Source: a virus. From it: DNA of 29,799 nt. Shown here in pieces: positions 21,608 to 26,966 of the stretch; the first letter of the stretch is position 1; every line of letters starts with the position of its first letter. Where the stretch lies: positions 1 through 29,799 of IMG/VR virus record IMGVR_UViG_3300034375_002172, one strand, 5' to 3'. The notes under the pieces are model-generated. The model searched no databases and was not told the origin of the DNA. It saw only the letters and a program-made list of their open reading frames with translations. Position numbers and translations under genes: made by a program.

Positions 21608-22039
21608 ATGGCAACCTTTGTTAAAATAAACGACTTCGTTGACTACGCAGTTGAGGCTATGAACTTGGGAAGTGATTCTCTTGTAATTGCTCTCTCAAAT
21701 ACAGCGCCGGGTTCTGAAAGTTCTAACCCAACTGCTGATGGTAATGGTATTTTAGGCAATGTAACTCAGATTAGTTACAGCAACTTGTCTTCAAGAAGCC
21801 TGACAAGAACTTCATCCAGCCAATCAGGTGGTGTTTATAAGCTTGTTCTTGCGGATCTAACGCTTACTGCGTCAGGCGGCTCTGTTGCTGCGTTCCGTTA
21901 TGTTTACATTTATAATGACACTGTAACAAATGACCCTCTTATTGGTTATTATGACTATGGTTCAAGCTTAACGCTCAACGATGGCGATACGTTTACTATC
22001 GACTTCAGCCCATCAAACGGTGTTATTCAGCTAACCTAA
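21608..22039 (+). CDS. Conserved phage structural protein, tail-associated (143 aa)
   Basis: AGGAGATAGAT before the ATG is a clear ribosome site, and a non-coding spacer of 57 bases precedes it. The protein is beta-rich: an N-terminal helix-strand region (ATFVKINDFVDYAVEAMNLG), a middle with LALSN-type strands, and FRYVYIYNDTVTNDPLIGYY followed by a DYG turn near the end. The last pattern (YNDTVTNDPLIG) is widespread in phage proteins lying before tail-fibre genes. It probably forms a small ring or collar at the tail tip, but the exact role is not known. Confidence 0.7.
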   Translation: MATFVKINDFVDYAVEAMNLGSDSLVIALSNTAPGSESSNPTADGNGILGNVTQISYSNLSSRSLTRTSSSQSGGVYKLVLADLTLTASGGSVAAFRYVYIYNDTVTNDPLIGYYDYGSSLTLNDGDTFTIDFSPSNGVIQLT

Positions 22040-22052
22040 TAAGGAGTAGCTT

Positions 22053-22514
22053 ATGGCTGTTCTTGTAAATAGGGCAAAGGTAGCAACCAGCACAACTGGG
22101 ACTGGCACAATTACGCTTGGCTCTGCGGAGGATGGATATCAAACCTTCGCAGATGCTGGCGTAGCAAATGGAGACGTTGTAAGGTACATTATAGAAGATG
22201 GCAGTAATTTTGAGATAGGCACAGGAACCTACACAGCTTCTGGAACTACTCTTACACGCACCGTAAGCGAAAGCAGCAACTCAAATAATGCTATTAATCT
22301 TAGCGGATCTGCTACTGTATTTATTGGTGCTACTGCACAAGATTTAAGCCCTTTGGGCGGCGGCTCTAATAAGGTTTTCTTTGAGAACGATACGAATGTA
22401 ACCGCTAACTATACGATTACTGATGGCAAGAATGCTATGTCTGCTGGCCCTATTACAATAGATAGCGGTGTTACGGTTACAGTTGGCACTGGTGAAACAT
22501 GGACGGTGGTTTAG
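22053..22514 (+). CDS. Tail fibre-type protein (153 aa)
   Basis: The protein starts NRAKVATSTTGTGTITLGSA after MAVLV and continues with YQTFADAGVANGDVVRYIIE and GTYTASGTTLTRTVSESSNS. This is a module I recall at the start of many marine phage tail fibres. The C-terminal part (NDTNVTANYTITDGKNAMSA, ending ETWTVV) is another standard fibre module. Elsewhere these modules belong to longer fibres. Here they form one short gene. All strands, no enzyme motif. A ribosome site AAGGAG lies upstream. Confidence 0.8.
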   Translation: MAVLVNRAKVATSTTGTGTITLGSAEDGYQTFADAGVANGDVVRYIIEDGSNFEIGTGTYTASGTTLTRTVSESSNSNNAINLSGSATVFIGATAQDLSPLGGGSNKVFFENDTNVTANYTITDGKNAMSAGPITIDSGVTVTVGTGETWTVV

Positions 22515-22943
22515 ATGGCATCAATTAAAATTCAAAGTAGTTCATCAGGTGGTGGCAGCATAACGCTTACCGCGCCTACTACTTCGTCTAATAGAACCGT
22601 AACGCTTCCTGATGCCGATGTAACTTTAGGCGCTCCATATGATCCTACGGGAACATTTCCAGCAAAAGCTTGGGTAAACATTAATGGAGCTAACGGCTCA
22701 ATTAGAGGTAATGGAAATGTTTCAAGTGTAACTGATAATGGGTCTTCACGCTTTACTGTTAATTATACTAATTCAATTTCTAGTGCTGATTGTTCTGTTA
22801 CGGCATCTGTATCTAATACATCGTACAGCTATTTAATGGGGGTTGACTTGTATTCTTTTGGTACAGCAAATTGTTCAGTAAGAACACATGACTATAATTC
22901 GTTACAAGATGTTACATACCTTTCTGTAACTGTTCACGTTTAA
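22515..22943 (+). CDS. Tail fibre tip protein A (142 aa)
   Basis: The gene begins on the base after the previous stop. The N-terminal module (SITLTAPTTSSNRTVTLPDA) is a common phage fibre attachment segment. The C-terminal domain (AKAWVNINGANGSIRGNGNV then SSVTDNGS) is a fibre-tip fold also present in the gene at 23357 (ARAWVNFNGSG...). The strand-rich C-terminus ending TYLSVTVHV would be the host-contacting part. Direct host binding is inference from family context. Confidence 0.75.
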   Translation: MASIKIQSSSSGGGSITLTAPTTSSNRTVTLPDADVTLGAPYDPTGTFPAKAWVNINGANGSIRGNGNVSSVTDNGSSRFTVNYTNSISSADCSVTASVSNTSYSYLMGVDLYSFGTANCSVRTHDYNSLQDVTYLSVTVHV

Positions 22944-22967
22944 TGCGTTATAACTAGGAGATTAAAA

Positions 22968-23360
22968 ATGACAAAATATCGTGTTATCTTTGATGATCCT
23001 GATGCTCTTGATGAGCCTACCAAGGTGCTTGTGCCTTCACAAAATTGGCTAGACGAAGCTATGTCTGGTGGGTTGCCCCCTATCTGGGTGTATTGGCAGC
23101 TTCAAGATGATGAGCAGCAAGCTATTAAAGAAGGGCGTCATAGCACGTTTCGACATGATCCAGACAAACATGCTTTGCAATGGACTGCGCCTCGCATTGG
23201 GCCTCTAACGGAAGAGGAAGCTATGGAATATTTGTGTATGAAAGACTTACCTCGCAAGTGCTGGGCAGAAGAACACAACCGCCCAATGTTCAAGATTGTA
23301 CGCACAGAAGAAGTGCCAAGCGATAGGCAGTTTCGCAATGCTTGGGAGATGGCAGCATGA
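22968..23360 (+). CDS. Tail fibre chaperone-like protein, probably truncated (130 aa)
   Basis: AGGAG lies seven bases before the ATG. The protein is acidic and Trp-rich (QNWLDEAM, PPIWVYWQLQDDEQQAI). It ends with EEVPSDRQFRNAWEMAA. The motif P(S/A)(D/E)R.FR(N/D).WE also occurs near the start of the gene at 23740, where it is followed by a long helix. Here the protein stops right after the motif, at the ATGA junction with the next fibre-tip gene. It looks like the front of a chaperone whose helical C-terminus was lost or moved by recombination. Confidence 0.6.
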   Translation: MTKYRVIFDDPDALDEPTKVLVPSQNWLDEAMSGGLPPIWVYWQLQDDEQQAIKEGRHSTFRHDPDKHALQWTAPRIGPLTEEEAMEYLCMKDLPRKCWAEEHNRPMFKIVRTEEVPSDRQFRNAWEMAA

Positions 23361-23719
23361 GCACTATTAAGGTTAATGCGCTGCAAGATACAAGCGGTAA
23401 TGGATATTACCCTGCTAGGGCTTGGGTAAACTTTAACGGCTCTGGAACTGTAGCTATACGCAATGACGAAAATGTTGCTTCTATAACTGATAGTGGAACA
23501 GGTGGTTATATCGTAAATTTTTCAAACAATCTTTCAACTGCAACCTACTCTGCTTTATCTACATGGGGGGGGAACCAGTTGGGTGGCGCTCAATACGGCA
23601 GCGGCATAGGCAATTATAATTTTAATGTCTCGATCCTTACTACGGGCTGTAGGGTTGTAGGTGGAGCTGGTTCTAGTGCTGATGACATTCCATATTTATG
23701 TTTTGCAGCGCATGATTAG
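23357..23719 (+). CDS. Tail fibre tip protein B (120 aa), paralogue of tip A
   Basis: The start is the ATG at 23357 in an ATGA overlap. An upstream in-frame ATG at 23342 lies inside the previous gene and lacks a site. The N-terminus MSTIKVNALQDTSGNG is a known fibre module, different from that of tip A. The next part, PARAWVNFNGSGTVAIRNDE followed by NVASITDSGTGGY, is clearly related to tip A (PAKAWVNINGANGSIRGNGN). The remainder is Gly/Tyr-rich and divergent. Two related tips behind different attachment modules suggest mosaic exchange. Confidence 0.72.
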   Translation: MSTIKVNALQDTSGNGYYPARAWVNFNGSGTVAIRNDENVASITDSGTGGYIVNFSNNLSTATYSALSTWGGNQLGGAQYGSGIGNYNFNVSILTTGCRVVGGAGSSADDIPYLCFAAHD

Positions 23720-23739
23720 TATTTTAAAGGAGTAAACAA

Positions 23740-24096
23740 ATGACAACTTTTATTAAAATAGGCGCAACATCTTATAACGCTGCTGATTATACAATCCCAG
23801 CGGAGCGCACGTTTCGTGATGGATGGGAAGCCAATACAGATACAAATGTAATCTCTGTTAATATGGCAAAGGCCAAGGATATTTGGCGCGATAAGATACG
23901 CGCAGCTAGGATTGAACCGCTGGCTGCTTTGGACACTGCGTTTATGAAGGCGCAAGAAACAAGCGCAAGCACAACTCAGATTGTAGCTGACAAGCAAGCA
24001 CTGCGTGATGCCCCTGCATTATCAAGCATTGATAACGCCACAACGCCTGATGAGCTAAAAGCCATCCAGCCAATCCCAAATATAACGGTGGAATAA
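23740..24096 (+). CDS. Tail fibre assembly chaperone-like protein (118 aa)
   Basis: AAAGGAG before the ATG is the strongest ribosome site in this stretch. The protein has a short beta start (TTFIKIGATSYNAADY), then IPAERTFRDGWEAN and a helix with MAKAKDIWRDKIRAARIEPL and DTAFMKAQETSAS. It ends with a helix and a Pro-rich tail. The pattern (R.FR..W, then M.KA..I.RD.IR..R...L..LD..F..A) is that of phage tail-assembly/fibre chaperone proteins common in marine phages. It would assist folding of a neighbouring tip. Confidence 0.65.
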   Translation: MTTFIKIGATSYNAADYTIPAERTFRDGWEANTDTNVISVNMAKAKDIWRDKIRAARIEPLAALDTAFMKAQETSASTTQIVADKQALRDAPALSSIDNATTPDELKAIQPIPNITVE

Positions 24097-24636
24097 ATGA
24101 CTAGCGTAATTCGTGGCAGTGATAATTTTGACAGTGGAGTTTCGGCAACTGTTGGTTTTACTACAGTAACTGATACTCAAAGTAGCTCGTTTACTAAACC
24201 AAACGATGCCTATGACCTTGAAAGTACTTTTTTTGGTGATAGTTTTTTTAACGAAGTAAGTGGAGTGCCTAGTTCTAGTTATGAGGTAATGGCAGGAAGT
24301 GCCCAATCATCATCCACATTATTCAATGTAACTTTTACTATATCAAGTGCTAGTACGCACACGAGAAGAGAAAGTTATTGGGGTGATCTTTTATTAGTGG
24401 GTAAGAAAAACACTGTAACTAATAAGTCTATGGCATTTTACAATATGGCTAACGGTTGGCCAAACCAAACTATTTTTCCAGTATCATATGCCACTGGTGT
24501 TATAATATTAAATGTAAATGAACAATTATGTATATGGGCTTCAGATGTTTACGGAGGAGGAGGGATATATAACTCTAATCTTGTACTCGCAAGCGGTGCT
24601 TCCACTATAGTAAGTAAAAAACTAAGTTTATCGTAA
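24097..24636 (+). CDS. Tail fibre tip protein C (179 aa)
   Basis: The ATG follows the previous stop directly. The N-terminus TSVIRGSDNFDSGVSATVGF is a widespread phage fibre segment. The rest is Ser/Thr/Gly-rich beta sequence, with no similarity to tips A and B that I can see by eye. It contains ESYWGDLLLVGKKNT and a Tyr/Gly patch (ASDVYGGGGIYNS). It is probably a receptor-contact domain served by the chaperone-like gene that follows it. The exact fold is not recognised. Confidence 0.65.
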   Translation: MTSVIRGSDNFDSGVSATVGFTTVTDTQSSSFTKPNDAYDLESTFFGDSFFNEVSGVPSSSYEVMAGSAQSSSTLFNVTFTISSASTHTRRESYWGDLLLVGKKNTVTNKSMAFYNMANGWPNQTIFPVSYATGVIILNVNEQLCIWASDVYGGGGIYNSNLVLASGASTIVSKKLSLS

Positions 24637-24648
24637 AAAGGTATTACT

Positions 24649-24828
24649 ATGATAACTGAAAAACAAGTGCGGGAATACAGAGACACCTTTTTGCTCGAAA
24701 CAGATTGGTGGGCTGTATCAGATCGTACAATGACAGATGCCCAAACAGCTTATCGTCAAGCTTTGCGCGATATCCCAGCGCAATCAGACTTTCCAGACAA
24801 TGTGACTTGGCCCACTAAACCGGAGTAA
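24649..24828 (+). CDS. Short tail fibre chaperone-like protein (59 aa)
   Basis: A frame of 59 residues begins at ATG 24649 after AAAAAGG. It has TEKQVREYRDTFLLETDWWA, then SDRTMTDAQTAYRQALRDIP, AQSDFP and VTWPTKPE. This is the compact 'R..L..TDW......YRQALRD...Q..FP..V.WP..P' signature of small tail-fibre assembly proteins (DUF4376/Caudo_TAP-like). The match is strong for its size. It stands between tip C and the repeat-fibre gene, so either could be its client. Confidence 0.75.
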   Translation: MITEKQVREYRDTFLLETDWWAVSDRTMTDAQTAYRQALRDIPAQSDFPDNVTWPTKPE

Positions 24829-24831
24829 TAG

Positions 24832-26610
24832 ATGTTAGGTTTTTCCCCACTAGCTTCTGCGCCACTAGCGGATAGTGGGGTTACATCTGTTGACTATGCT
24901 TTAACGGCAGATGCTGGGAGCTTTGCGCTTACGGGGCAGACTGCGGATCTTAACGTAGGTTACAATCTTTCTGCAAATGCTAGGCTGTCTACTTTTCAGT
25001 TTAAAGACGCTGACTTTGTTAAAGCGTTAAATGTTGCAGCGGGAACAGGCAGCTTTACAGTCACGGGTCAAACTGTTGCTCTTAATAAAGCTGTAAACTT
25101 AGCGGGTGGCGCAGGATCTTTTGCTCTTACGGGGCAAGCCGCTGATTTCGCTAAGGCTTTAAATGTAAGCGGTGGAACAGGCAGCTTTACGCTTACTGGG
25201 CAAGACGCTGGCATTTTAATCGGAGAAATCTTTGAGACAGGAGCCTTTGCGCTTACTGGTCAGACGGTCGGCCTTAATAAAGCTGTTGTTATGTCAGCAG
25301 CGACAGGCAGTTTTGCAGCCACAGGACAAGCAGTTGATTTAAATAAAGCAGTAAAAGTTTCTGGTGGCACAGGTAGTTTTGTACTGACAGGCCAGACGGT
25401 TACATTTGGTAATGCTTACTTGTTGGCCGCAGCTACTGGATCGTTTGCTCTTACTGGCAGCGCGGTAGACTTTGGCATTGGTGAAGCATTTGGAACGGGG
25501 AGCTTTGCGCTTACGGGTCAAGGCATTAATATTAATAAGGCTGTCCGTATCTCAGCAGATGCTGGCAGCTTTGCTTTGTCTGGACAGGCGGCTGTGCTTG
25601 ATCCAAACTTTGGCAACAAAATTATTGCACAAGTCGGAAGCTTTGCTCTCACAGGACAAACTGCACAGATAACAAAAACAATGTCTGTTGATTTGGGTGC
25701 AGGATCTTTTGCGCTGACGGGTCAAGCGGCAAGTATTGCAGCAGGTAGGTTGCTTACAGCAAGCACAGGATCGTTTAGTTTATCTGGGCAAGCGGTAGAT
25801 TTTAACAAGCAGCTTAATGTAAGCGCAGCAACAGGATCGTTTACGCTCACTGGTCAGAGTGTAAGCTTTGTTGCTGGTGCGCTGATTGCTGCTGGTACTG
25901 GTACGTTTGCAACGAGCGGCCAAGATGTAAGCATTGCTGTTGCTAGATTGCTTGAAGCTAGCGCGGGATCGTTTGGATTAACTGGTCAGGCTGTTACGAT
26001 AAACCGCACAGTAAAAATGACTGCTGATGTCGGTGCGTTTATTCTGACTGGTCAAGATGCTGGCGTACTTATCGGCGAGATCTTTGAGACTGGTGGTTTT
26101 AGTTTATCTGGGCAAGCTGTTGGTTTAAACAAGGCTGTAAAACTATCGGCTGGTACTGGTTCGTTTGCTTTGACAGGGCAAGATGTTTCTATTGTTGCTG
26201 GCGCAAGGCTTGTTGCTGATGCAGGATCGTTTGCTCTTACGGGGCAAGATGTATCTATTAAAAGATCTATAACTGAAAGCTTTGGCGCGGGTTCGTTTGC
26301 CTTAACTGGTCAAGATGCTGGCTTAGCTCAAGCTAGAAACTATAATCTTACAGCAAGTCATGCTTCGTTTGCTCTGACTGGGCAAAGCGTTGTCTTTATA
26401 AACGGCAAGTCAATTGTTGCAGATGTCGGAAGCTTTGCCTTAACAGGACAGGATTCTTCTCTAATTTATATTAAGGCTATTGTTGCTAACCCAGATATAG
26501 ATGTCGCTACTGAAGCAATAATTTATAACTCTACTTCTCAGGTTTTAATAACAACAAGCTTCAATGATGTTATTCTTCATGAAGATATAGTGTTTGCAAA
26601 TGTAGCTTAA
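24832..26610 (+). CDS. GSFALTGQ-repeat fibre protein (592 aa)
   Basis: The start MLGFSPLASAPLADSG is a common marine phage virion-protein N-terminus. From residue 29 to about 540 the protein is about 23 copies of a unit near 22 residues long with consensus GSFALTGQ, then two variable hydrophobic strands (for example AVDLNKAVKVSGGT). A degenerate extra copy lies between units 1 and 2. Each unit is likely a pair of strands with a turn, so the whole may form a long beta-solenoid or trimeric fibre shaft. The last 50 residues (ANPDIDVATEAIIYNSTS onward) are non-repetitive and could be a tip. A role in host contact is inference. Confidence 0.8.
   Translation: MLGFSPLASAPLADSGVTSVDYALTADAGSFALTGQTADLNVGYNLSANARLSTFQFKDADFVKALNVAAGTGSFTVTGQTVALNKAVNLAGGAGSFALTGQAADFAKALNVSGGTGSFTLTGQDAGILIGEIFETGAFALTGQTVGLNKAVVMSAATGSFAATGQAVDLNKAVKVSGGTGSFVLTGQTVTFGNAYLLAAATGSFALTGSAVDFGIGEAFGTGSFALTGQGININKAVRISADAGSFALSGQAAVLDPNFGNKIIAQVGSFALTGQTAQITKTMSVDLGAGSFALTGQAASIAAGRLLTASTGSFSLSGQAVDFNKQLNVSAATGSFTLTGQSVSFVAGALIAAGTGTFATSGQDVSIAVARLLEASAGSFGLTGQAVTINRTVKMTADVGAFILTGQDAGVLIGEIFETGGFSLSGQAVGLNKAVKLSAGTGSFALTGQDVSIVAGARLVADAGSFALTGQDVSIKRSITESFGAGSFALTGQDAGLAQARNYNLTASHASFALTGQSVVFINGKSIVADVGSFALTGQDSSLIYIKAIVANPDIDVATEAIIYNSTSQVLITTSFNDVILHEDIVFANVA
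24910..26460 (+). repeat. About 23 tandem repeats of a ~66-base coding unit
   Basis: The protein motif G(S/A/T/G)F..(T/S)GQ recurs with an average period of about 22 codons. DNA copies vary in synonymous sites (for example ACGGGGCAG, ACTGGTCAA, ACAGGACAG), so protein sequence is held while codons drift. Confidence 0.85.
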
Positions 26611-26642: not shown

Positions 26643-26966
26643 ATGACATTTTACATAAAGCAAAATGATACAAGGCCCATCTTGTCAGCCACTCTAGTTA
26701 ATAGTGATGGTAGTGTGCCAGACTTAACTGGCTCTACTGTTGTGTTTAAGATGAGAAAATTAGGTGAATCTTCAGCTAAAGTAGATGCGGCTGCTGCTGT
26801 AACTGGGGCAACAACAGGCGATATCCAGTACACTTGGATTGCAACTAACACAGATACTGTTGGAAGTTATGAAGGCGAGATTCAAGTTACCTTTGCTGGT
26901 GGTGGGGTGCAGACTTATCCAAATAGTAGATACATAGAAATAGAAATTGTGGATGACATAGCATGA
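26643..26966 (+). CDS. BppU N-terminal-like baseplate/fibre adaptor protein (107 aa)
   Basis: The sequence has FYIKQNDTRPILSATLVNSD, then PDLTGSTVVFKMRK, GDIQYTWIATNTDTVGSYEG, and a final IEIEIVDD strand. This is the beta-sandwich pattern of BppU N-terminal-type domains, which attach receptor-binding proteins to a baseplate in siphoviruses. They are also found as short stand-alone proteins in marine phages. In a short-tailed phage it may anchor a fibre. AAGGACTGAGG precedes the ATG. It overlaps the next gene by ATGA. Confidence 0.7.
   Translation: MTFYIKQNDTRPILSATLVNSDGSVPDLTGSTVVFKMRKLGESSAKVDAAAAVTGATTGDIQYTWIATNTDTVGSYEGEIQVTFAGGGVQTYPNSRYIEIEIVDDIA

Follow-up and report, generated by a model that had tools for sequence, protein, structure and literature searches.

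We found that six consecutive genes in a marine phage fragment form a recurrent cassette of three tip genes interleaved with three small genes (C1, C2 and C3). The gene order, the slot-specific N-termini of the tips, the exchange of their C-terminal heads, the obligate linkage of C1 to C2 and the dependence of C3 on the class of head were each observed computationally across related loci. On balance we favor reading this locus as a tip cassette with three slots and exchangeable heads, in which the assembly genes depend on head class, C1-C2 for one class (W) and C3 for another.

Composition and recurrence of the cassette

The window, the whole 29.8-kb stretch that we analyzed, is a metagenomic virus fragment from IMG/VR and represents a marine phage known from sequence alone. 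DNA similarity of the window to isolated phages consisted of short matches only. Its left part encodes terminase, a podovirus-type head-tail connector, capsid, tail tubular-type and internal-virion-type proteins, and the cassette lies where a T7-like phage would have its tail fiber gene. W-type heads take their name from the conserved AWVNFNG with which they begin. The features of the cassette are as follows.

21608..22039, + strand: g1, small protein at the cassette start, downstream of an internal-virion-type gene (ORF, good ribosome-binding site)
22053..22514, + strand: g2, fiber C-terminal-type module (PHROG matches)
22515..22943, + strand: tip A, slot-A protein with a MASIKIQSSSSGGGS... 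N-terminus and a W-type head (PHROGs, W-tip profile, slot before C1)
22968..23360, + strand: C1, 130 aa, undescribed family, ending in DRQFRNAW (co-occurrence with C2)
23322..23345, + strand: FRxAW motif of C1 (DRQFRNAW; R120, R123 and W126 invariant in 28 sequences)
23357..23360, + strand: ATGA overlap, tip B start over the C1 stop (-4 spacing)
23357..23719, + strand: tip B, slot-B protein with a MSTIKVNALQDTSGNG N-terminus and a W-type head (phrog_11355, tail fiber, E 6e-12)
23740..24096, + strand: C2, FRxAW motif plus Phage_tail_APC-like helices (phrog_20196, phrog_4912)
23803..23826, + strand: FRxAW motif of C2 (ERTFRDGW; R23, F25, R26 and W29 invariant in 34 sequences)
24097..24636, + strand: tip C, slot-C protein with a MTSVIRGSDNFDSG N-terminus, common to 63 distinct proteins, and a non-W head
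24649..24828, + strand: C3, Phage_tail_APC family, 59 aa (PF16778, E 9e-18)
24832..26610, + strand: REP, 592 aa, about 20 GSFALTGQ-type repeats (repeat count)
26643..26966, + strand: BppU_N-like domain protein at the cassette end (PF10651, E 5e-5, just above the cut-off)

The genes flanking the six were also seen in relatives. In related loci g1 lay upstream of g2 or the fiber, and the g2 module was part of long fibers that reach about 1,400 aa; in the window g2 matched the C-terminus of phrog_34255 (E 7e-17) and the tail fiber family phrog_5342 (E 4e-7), and had a DNA match to the P-SSP7 gp17 tail fiber gene. REP came after slot C in relatives; its repeats recur roughly every 22 residues, and it is probably an elongated beta-structured fiber or adhesin. 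A different content of the same region was observed in six loci (L007, L008, L009, L011, L013, L015) with a homologue of the upstream 1,190-aa protein about 91% identical to that of the window. There, one long ORF (about 770-1,580 aa), in some loci with a few smaller ones, replaced the whole multi-tip cassette, which by sequence comparison is a wholesale exchange of the host-recognition region; across relatives of this kind the replacing ORFs, one or a few, spanned about 740-1,580 aa.

All six ORFs proposed in the sequence-only reading proved real, at the coordinates listed above and in the order tip A-C1-tip B-C2-tip C-C3. Good ribosome-binding sites were present for C1 (AGGAG), C2 (AAAGGAG) and C3 (AAAGG), and tips A, B and C each started at or over the stop codon of the preceding gene. 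The best start for tip B was the ATG at 23357, in the ATGA where its gene overlaps the C1 stop. All 32 distinct junctions of C1 with tip B showed the same -4 overlap; in 23 tip-less loci it was C2 that used it. The constancy of the overlap with or without a tip indicates that insertion or loss of a tip here is precise and involves no chaperone.

The internal virion protein, C1, C2, C3 and tip C served as scan queries, along with a DNA pattern of the slot-C N-terminal end, and retrieved more than 300 loci; these are kin, so their counts are not independent events. A W-type tip directly preceded C1 in 76 of 83 distinct IMG/VR loci. The gene before C2 (83 distinct loci) was C1 in 44, a W-type tip in 31 and C3 in 5, and of 93 distinct C3 loci, 90 had a gene for a non-W fiber or tip in front of C3. 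The six-gene order is far from chance. Twenty-five distinct loci had the order tip-C1-tip-C2, with 10 of these also carrying tip C-C3, and a related array is present in HMO-2011, an isolate belonging to a widespread marine type. With the full order in 10 distinct loci and the HMO-2011 array, the arrangement is a common one and no exception, and the description of it as unusual at such a phage size did not hold up.

Tips, slots and the exchange of heads

Tips A and B can be placed among fiber-type C-terminal domains through phrog_11355, a sequence family annotated as tail fiber; tip A matched this family with E 8e-9 and also matched phrog_3484, another tail fiber PHROG. The head of tip C had no relatives past near-identical contigs in our relative scans, and a solved-structure sequence search with the W-tip profiles gave nothing credible. 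An AlphaFold2 model of tip B was all beta (pLDDT 79, pTM 0.71), and Foldseek returned nothing significant with it (E above 0.5). Seven of the eight best VIA-align matches to the model were parts of phage or pyocin fibers, depolymerases or tailspikes; with one exception these aligned at or close to the C-termini of the structures, and Z was 5.0-7.5, values that unrelated folds can also reach. These included the phiAB6 tailspike (Z 7.5), the receptor-binding domain of the tailspike of cyanophage Pam1 (Z 7.3) and AP22 gp53 (Z 5.9), and K64-1 depolymerase and R2 pyocin fibers were also among the best eight. Given the range of Z, the fold evidence is suggestive of a tip B fold like the C-terminal domains of phage fibers and tailspikes. 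The PHROG matches, the tip B model and the low identity among heads support the earlier proposal that the first, third and fifth genes are of fiber or tip type, and their heads are hypervariable.

The N-terminus of a tip followed its slot, typically of MSTLKVNDIEEATSGGG type before C1, of MSTIKVDNLQTTSG type before C2 and IRGxDNFDS in slot C. The MASIKIQSSSSGGGS N-terminus of tip A in the window is less common and was also observed in slot A of L112, L107 and L109. Each tip would then combine this short slot-typical N-terminus, probably its docking end, with a C-terminal head that is replaced through recombination and may bind the receptor.

Heads were found to move between slots. The slot-A head of L066 and the slot-B head of L047 shared 304 bp at 94% DNA identity, with the similarity running from just inside the gene, after the N-terminus, to the stop codon, and with C1 aligning apart. 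Likewise, the slot-A heads of L042 and L112 were about 84% identical over 288 bp to the slot-B head of L127. C1 was 80-98% conserved in loci where the heads were mostly 19-38% identical to those of the window, near-identical contigs aside. In each of 23 phages the A head differed from the B head (median 30%, maximum 50% identity). As near-identical heads occur before either C1 or C2, while both of these genes and the slot ends stay unchanged, neither C1 nor C2 is head-specific. All three tips may be present in one virion, and several specificities in a single virion are plausible.

Genes accompanying the tips

C1 and C2 were observed together in 123 loci, and any C1 seen without C2 was at a contig end; by this co-occurrence the two are one obligate two-gene module. 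The layout of this module was a W-type tip upstream and, often, a second W-type tip between C1 and C2. Among 80 distinct loci the C1-C2 interval contained nothing in 44, one tip in 29 and more in 7. The presence or absence of tip B implied at least 9 changes on the C1 tree and 12 on the C2 tree, both trees being poorly resolved. C1 and C2 were also considered as one split gene, and this found no backing, with no ORF bearing both profiles. Profile comparison (hhalign) of C1 and C2 gave one common stretch of 16 residues around VPSDRxFRNAW (E 3e-6); C1 against C3 gave E 0.45, and C2 against C3 was weak (E 0.004 at 8% probability).

C1 had no convincing match in Pfam, PHROG or NCBIfam, and no chaperone family among these. 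Its model was a confident, compact alpha/beta fold (pLDDT 86.5). Fold searches of viral and PDB libraries with this model gave nothing informative (best Foldseek E 0.007, to an unnamed phage protein; none in the PDB), and a solved-structure sequence search with the C1 and C2 profiles gave nothing credible. C2 matched phrog_20196, of unknown function (E 2e-25), and weakly phrog_4912, annotated as tail fiber assembly (E 1e-4). Against PF16778 the C2 of the window scored 16 bits, under the cut-off of 26.6 for membership, and 12 of 34 members of the C2 family reached E 0.01 or better (best 3e-4); C2 is possibly remote kin of PF16778. C3 is a full member of PF16778, scoring 64.3 bits (cut-off 26.6) over model positions 3-60 of 60. 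It also matched several PHROGs annotated as tail fiber assembly, and its family matched the solved structure 2kz6 (E 5e-11). In the literature searched we found no experimental test of PF16778 (Phage_tail_APC) as a chaperone, and 'chaperone' is here the name of the family. Tail-assembly features had been ascribed to all three interleaved genes, and homology or structural kinship to chaperones was the point on which this ascription turned. It stood for C3 and, weakly, for C2 (phrog_4912, sub-threshold PF16778); C1, without a match, had the FRxAW motif and its position only.

C3 went with the class of head. Among distinct slot-C proteins, 32 of 50 with non-W heads were followed by C3, versus none of the 8 W-headed ones (Fisher p 8e-4, uncorrected for relatedness). 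L028 and L109, whose slot-A tip has a non-W head, had a C3 inserted before C1. The C1-C2 gap was wider in seven loci, and those inspected held a slot-C tip plus C3 between tip B and C2. These slot-C counts, the two slot-A cases and the relocated tip plus C3 indicate that C3 tracks head class, and tip C plus C3 behaves like a mobile pair with C3 as the candidate class-specific partner. Exceptions to this rule were L051 and L237, with non-W slot-A tips and no C3. The slot-A protein of L140 has a C-terminal end that we take to resemble an S74-type intramolecular chaperone. C3 was absent after 18 of the 50 non-W slot-C tips, including a group with C1q-like-looking heads (L251, L258, L304 and similar slot-C tips), which suggests that such heads are a third class needing neither helper.

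Short FRxAW proteins were also observed after W-type heads in other phages, including cyanophages 9515-10a and NATL2A-133, Vibrio phage 1.052.A and Pseudomonas phage PotUPM1. In loci fetched without C1 or C2, an FRxAW ORF adjoined 56 of 95 W tips, against a background of 4% of all ORFs in which the C1 and C2 genes themselves are counted. Some W heads, in isolates of an Octadecabacter virus and a Rhizobium phage, had no FRxAW gene directly after them, so C1/C2 are not universally needed. Several further occurrences were recorded. MW202867 holds an unannotated FRxAW homologue (L321:15-188), and the cyanomyovirus S-CAM9 encodes a C2-like protein (L155:3983-4273) amid hli, plastocyanin and psbA, with no fiber gene in the 8 kb seen. 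Relatives of C1 and C2 are also present, with an ERF-family gene, in 'Dunaliella viridis virus SI2' (L153:4896-5752), which looks like a phage of associated bacteria and not an algal virus. In PotUPM1 (L324:2830-3833) the W-type tip is followed by an FRxAW protein and then by a DUF4376 protein, all annotated as hypothetical.

Competing explanations and known systems

In the cassette as we envisage it, C1-C2 would be an inseparable unit with a common FRxAW motif that serves W-class heads in any slot, and C3, a Phage_tail_APC protein, would accompany and move with a different class of head. C1, C2 and C3 would all aid folding or assembly. For C1-C2 we lean, from their sequences and positions, toward such a role as folding helpers. 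They might instead be adaptors in the virion that mount the small tips on the fiber or tail, with FRxAW as a shared docking element, and would stay with the slot and not the head because they bind the conserved part of the tips. The retention of C1/C2 with the slot while heads swap agrees with this, as do the same short motif in both proteins, the compact folded model of C1 and the slot-specific N-termini of the slot A and B tips, which need partners. However, C2 is remotely similar to Phage_tail_APC and to PHROG profiles for tail fiber assembly, a position after fiber genes is typical of assembly factors, and W tips fused to long fibers (up to about 1,200 aa), where no separate docking is needed, keep C1 and C2. 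We regard adaptors as a serious but rather unlikely alternative.

The arrangement had been read as three autonomous pairs of tip and chaperone, perhaps acquired serially. In the window every tip does precede an assembly-like gene, and tip C-C3 was found after C2 and, in the wide-gap loci inspected, between tip B and C2 instead, so that it moves as a pair. This much of the reading was retained for tip C-C3. It failed for the rest of the cassette, since C1 and C2 stay together throughout, as direct neighbors in 44 of 80 loci, since tip B comes and goes on its own, and since the same head can precede C1 or C2; as an account of all six genes we consider it improbable. Movement of heads between slots would also be expected if the cassette were a reservoir of spare tips, with one tip built in at a time and the others silent until recombined into the active slot. 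All tips have intact frames and coupled starts, though, with 32 of 32 tip B genes starting in the C1-stop overlap; the N-termini are distinct by slot, not one expressed and one silent version; and no invertase or recombinase gene was seen in or beside the cassette. We hold this last explanation to be very improbable.

The exchangeable-head cassette could be carried further, to an address system in which three slots with their own docking ends and interchangeable heads give a single virion three specificities at once, and in which C1-C2 acts as a new assembly factor (or adaptor) of two components for a whole head class in any slot, so that heads could change while the helper stays. This we put forward tentatively, as a real possibility short of an expectation. 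Fiber and chaperone pairs are usually thought to coevolve, limiting the free exchange of receptor-binding tips. If C1-C2 serves a whole head class, this would explain free head exchange in abundant marine phages, and it would name the FRxAW family, now hypothetical in cyanophages, Vibrio phages and HMO-2011-type phages.

Among known systems, gp26/gp27 of Alteromonas phage V22 and gp8/gp9 of A5 (PMC7289586, PMC10579305) are, like the cassette, marine, with a receptor-binding fiber and a small assembly gene directly downstream. Unlike the cassette, they consist of one fiber and one chaperone, with DUF4376 and no FRxAW. The V22 chaperone is a DUF4376 protein whose function was shown by co-expression (PMC7289586). 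This domain was absent from C1, C2 and C3 in Pfam searches (positive control V22 gp27, E 3e-21), and profile comparisons of the three with V22 gp27 and A5 gp9 found no homology. With V22 gp27 and A5 gp9 lacking FRxAW and any match to C1, C2 or C3, the DUF4376 link in PotUPM1 is contextual and not one of homology. Metaviromic islands of marine phages (PMC3909814) share with the cassette the exchange of hypervariable host-recognition genes, but involve whole-gene recruitment, and slots and assembly genes were not resolved there.

The array of Puniceispirillum phage HMO-2011 (gp28-gp43), annotated only as hypothetical or putative tail fiber proteins, resembles the cassette in that C1 (gp36) adjoins C2 (gp35), a C3-type gene is present, and runs of small 'putative tail fiber' genes lie on either side of gp35/gp36. 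It differs in having no tip between C1 and C2, which are 41% and 47% identical, respectively, to those of the window. With respect to Phage_tail_APC (PF16778, 2kz6), C3 is a full member, the C2 helices match weakly and C1 is unrelated. In T4 gp37/gp38, Mu S/U (Tfa) and lambda Stf/Tfa, a small assembly gene comes after the fiber gene, the C-terminal specificity domains are exchangeable, and the assembly partner is specific for the fiber tip. In the cassette, by contrast, C1 and C2 stay while the heads swap, and three tip genes stand together.
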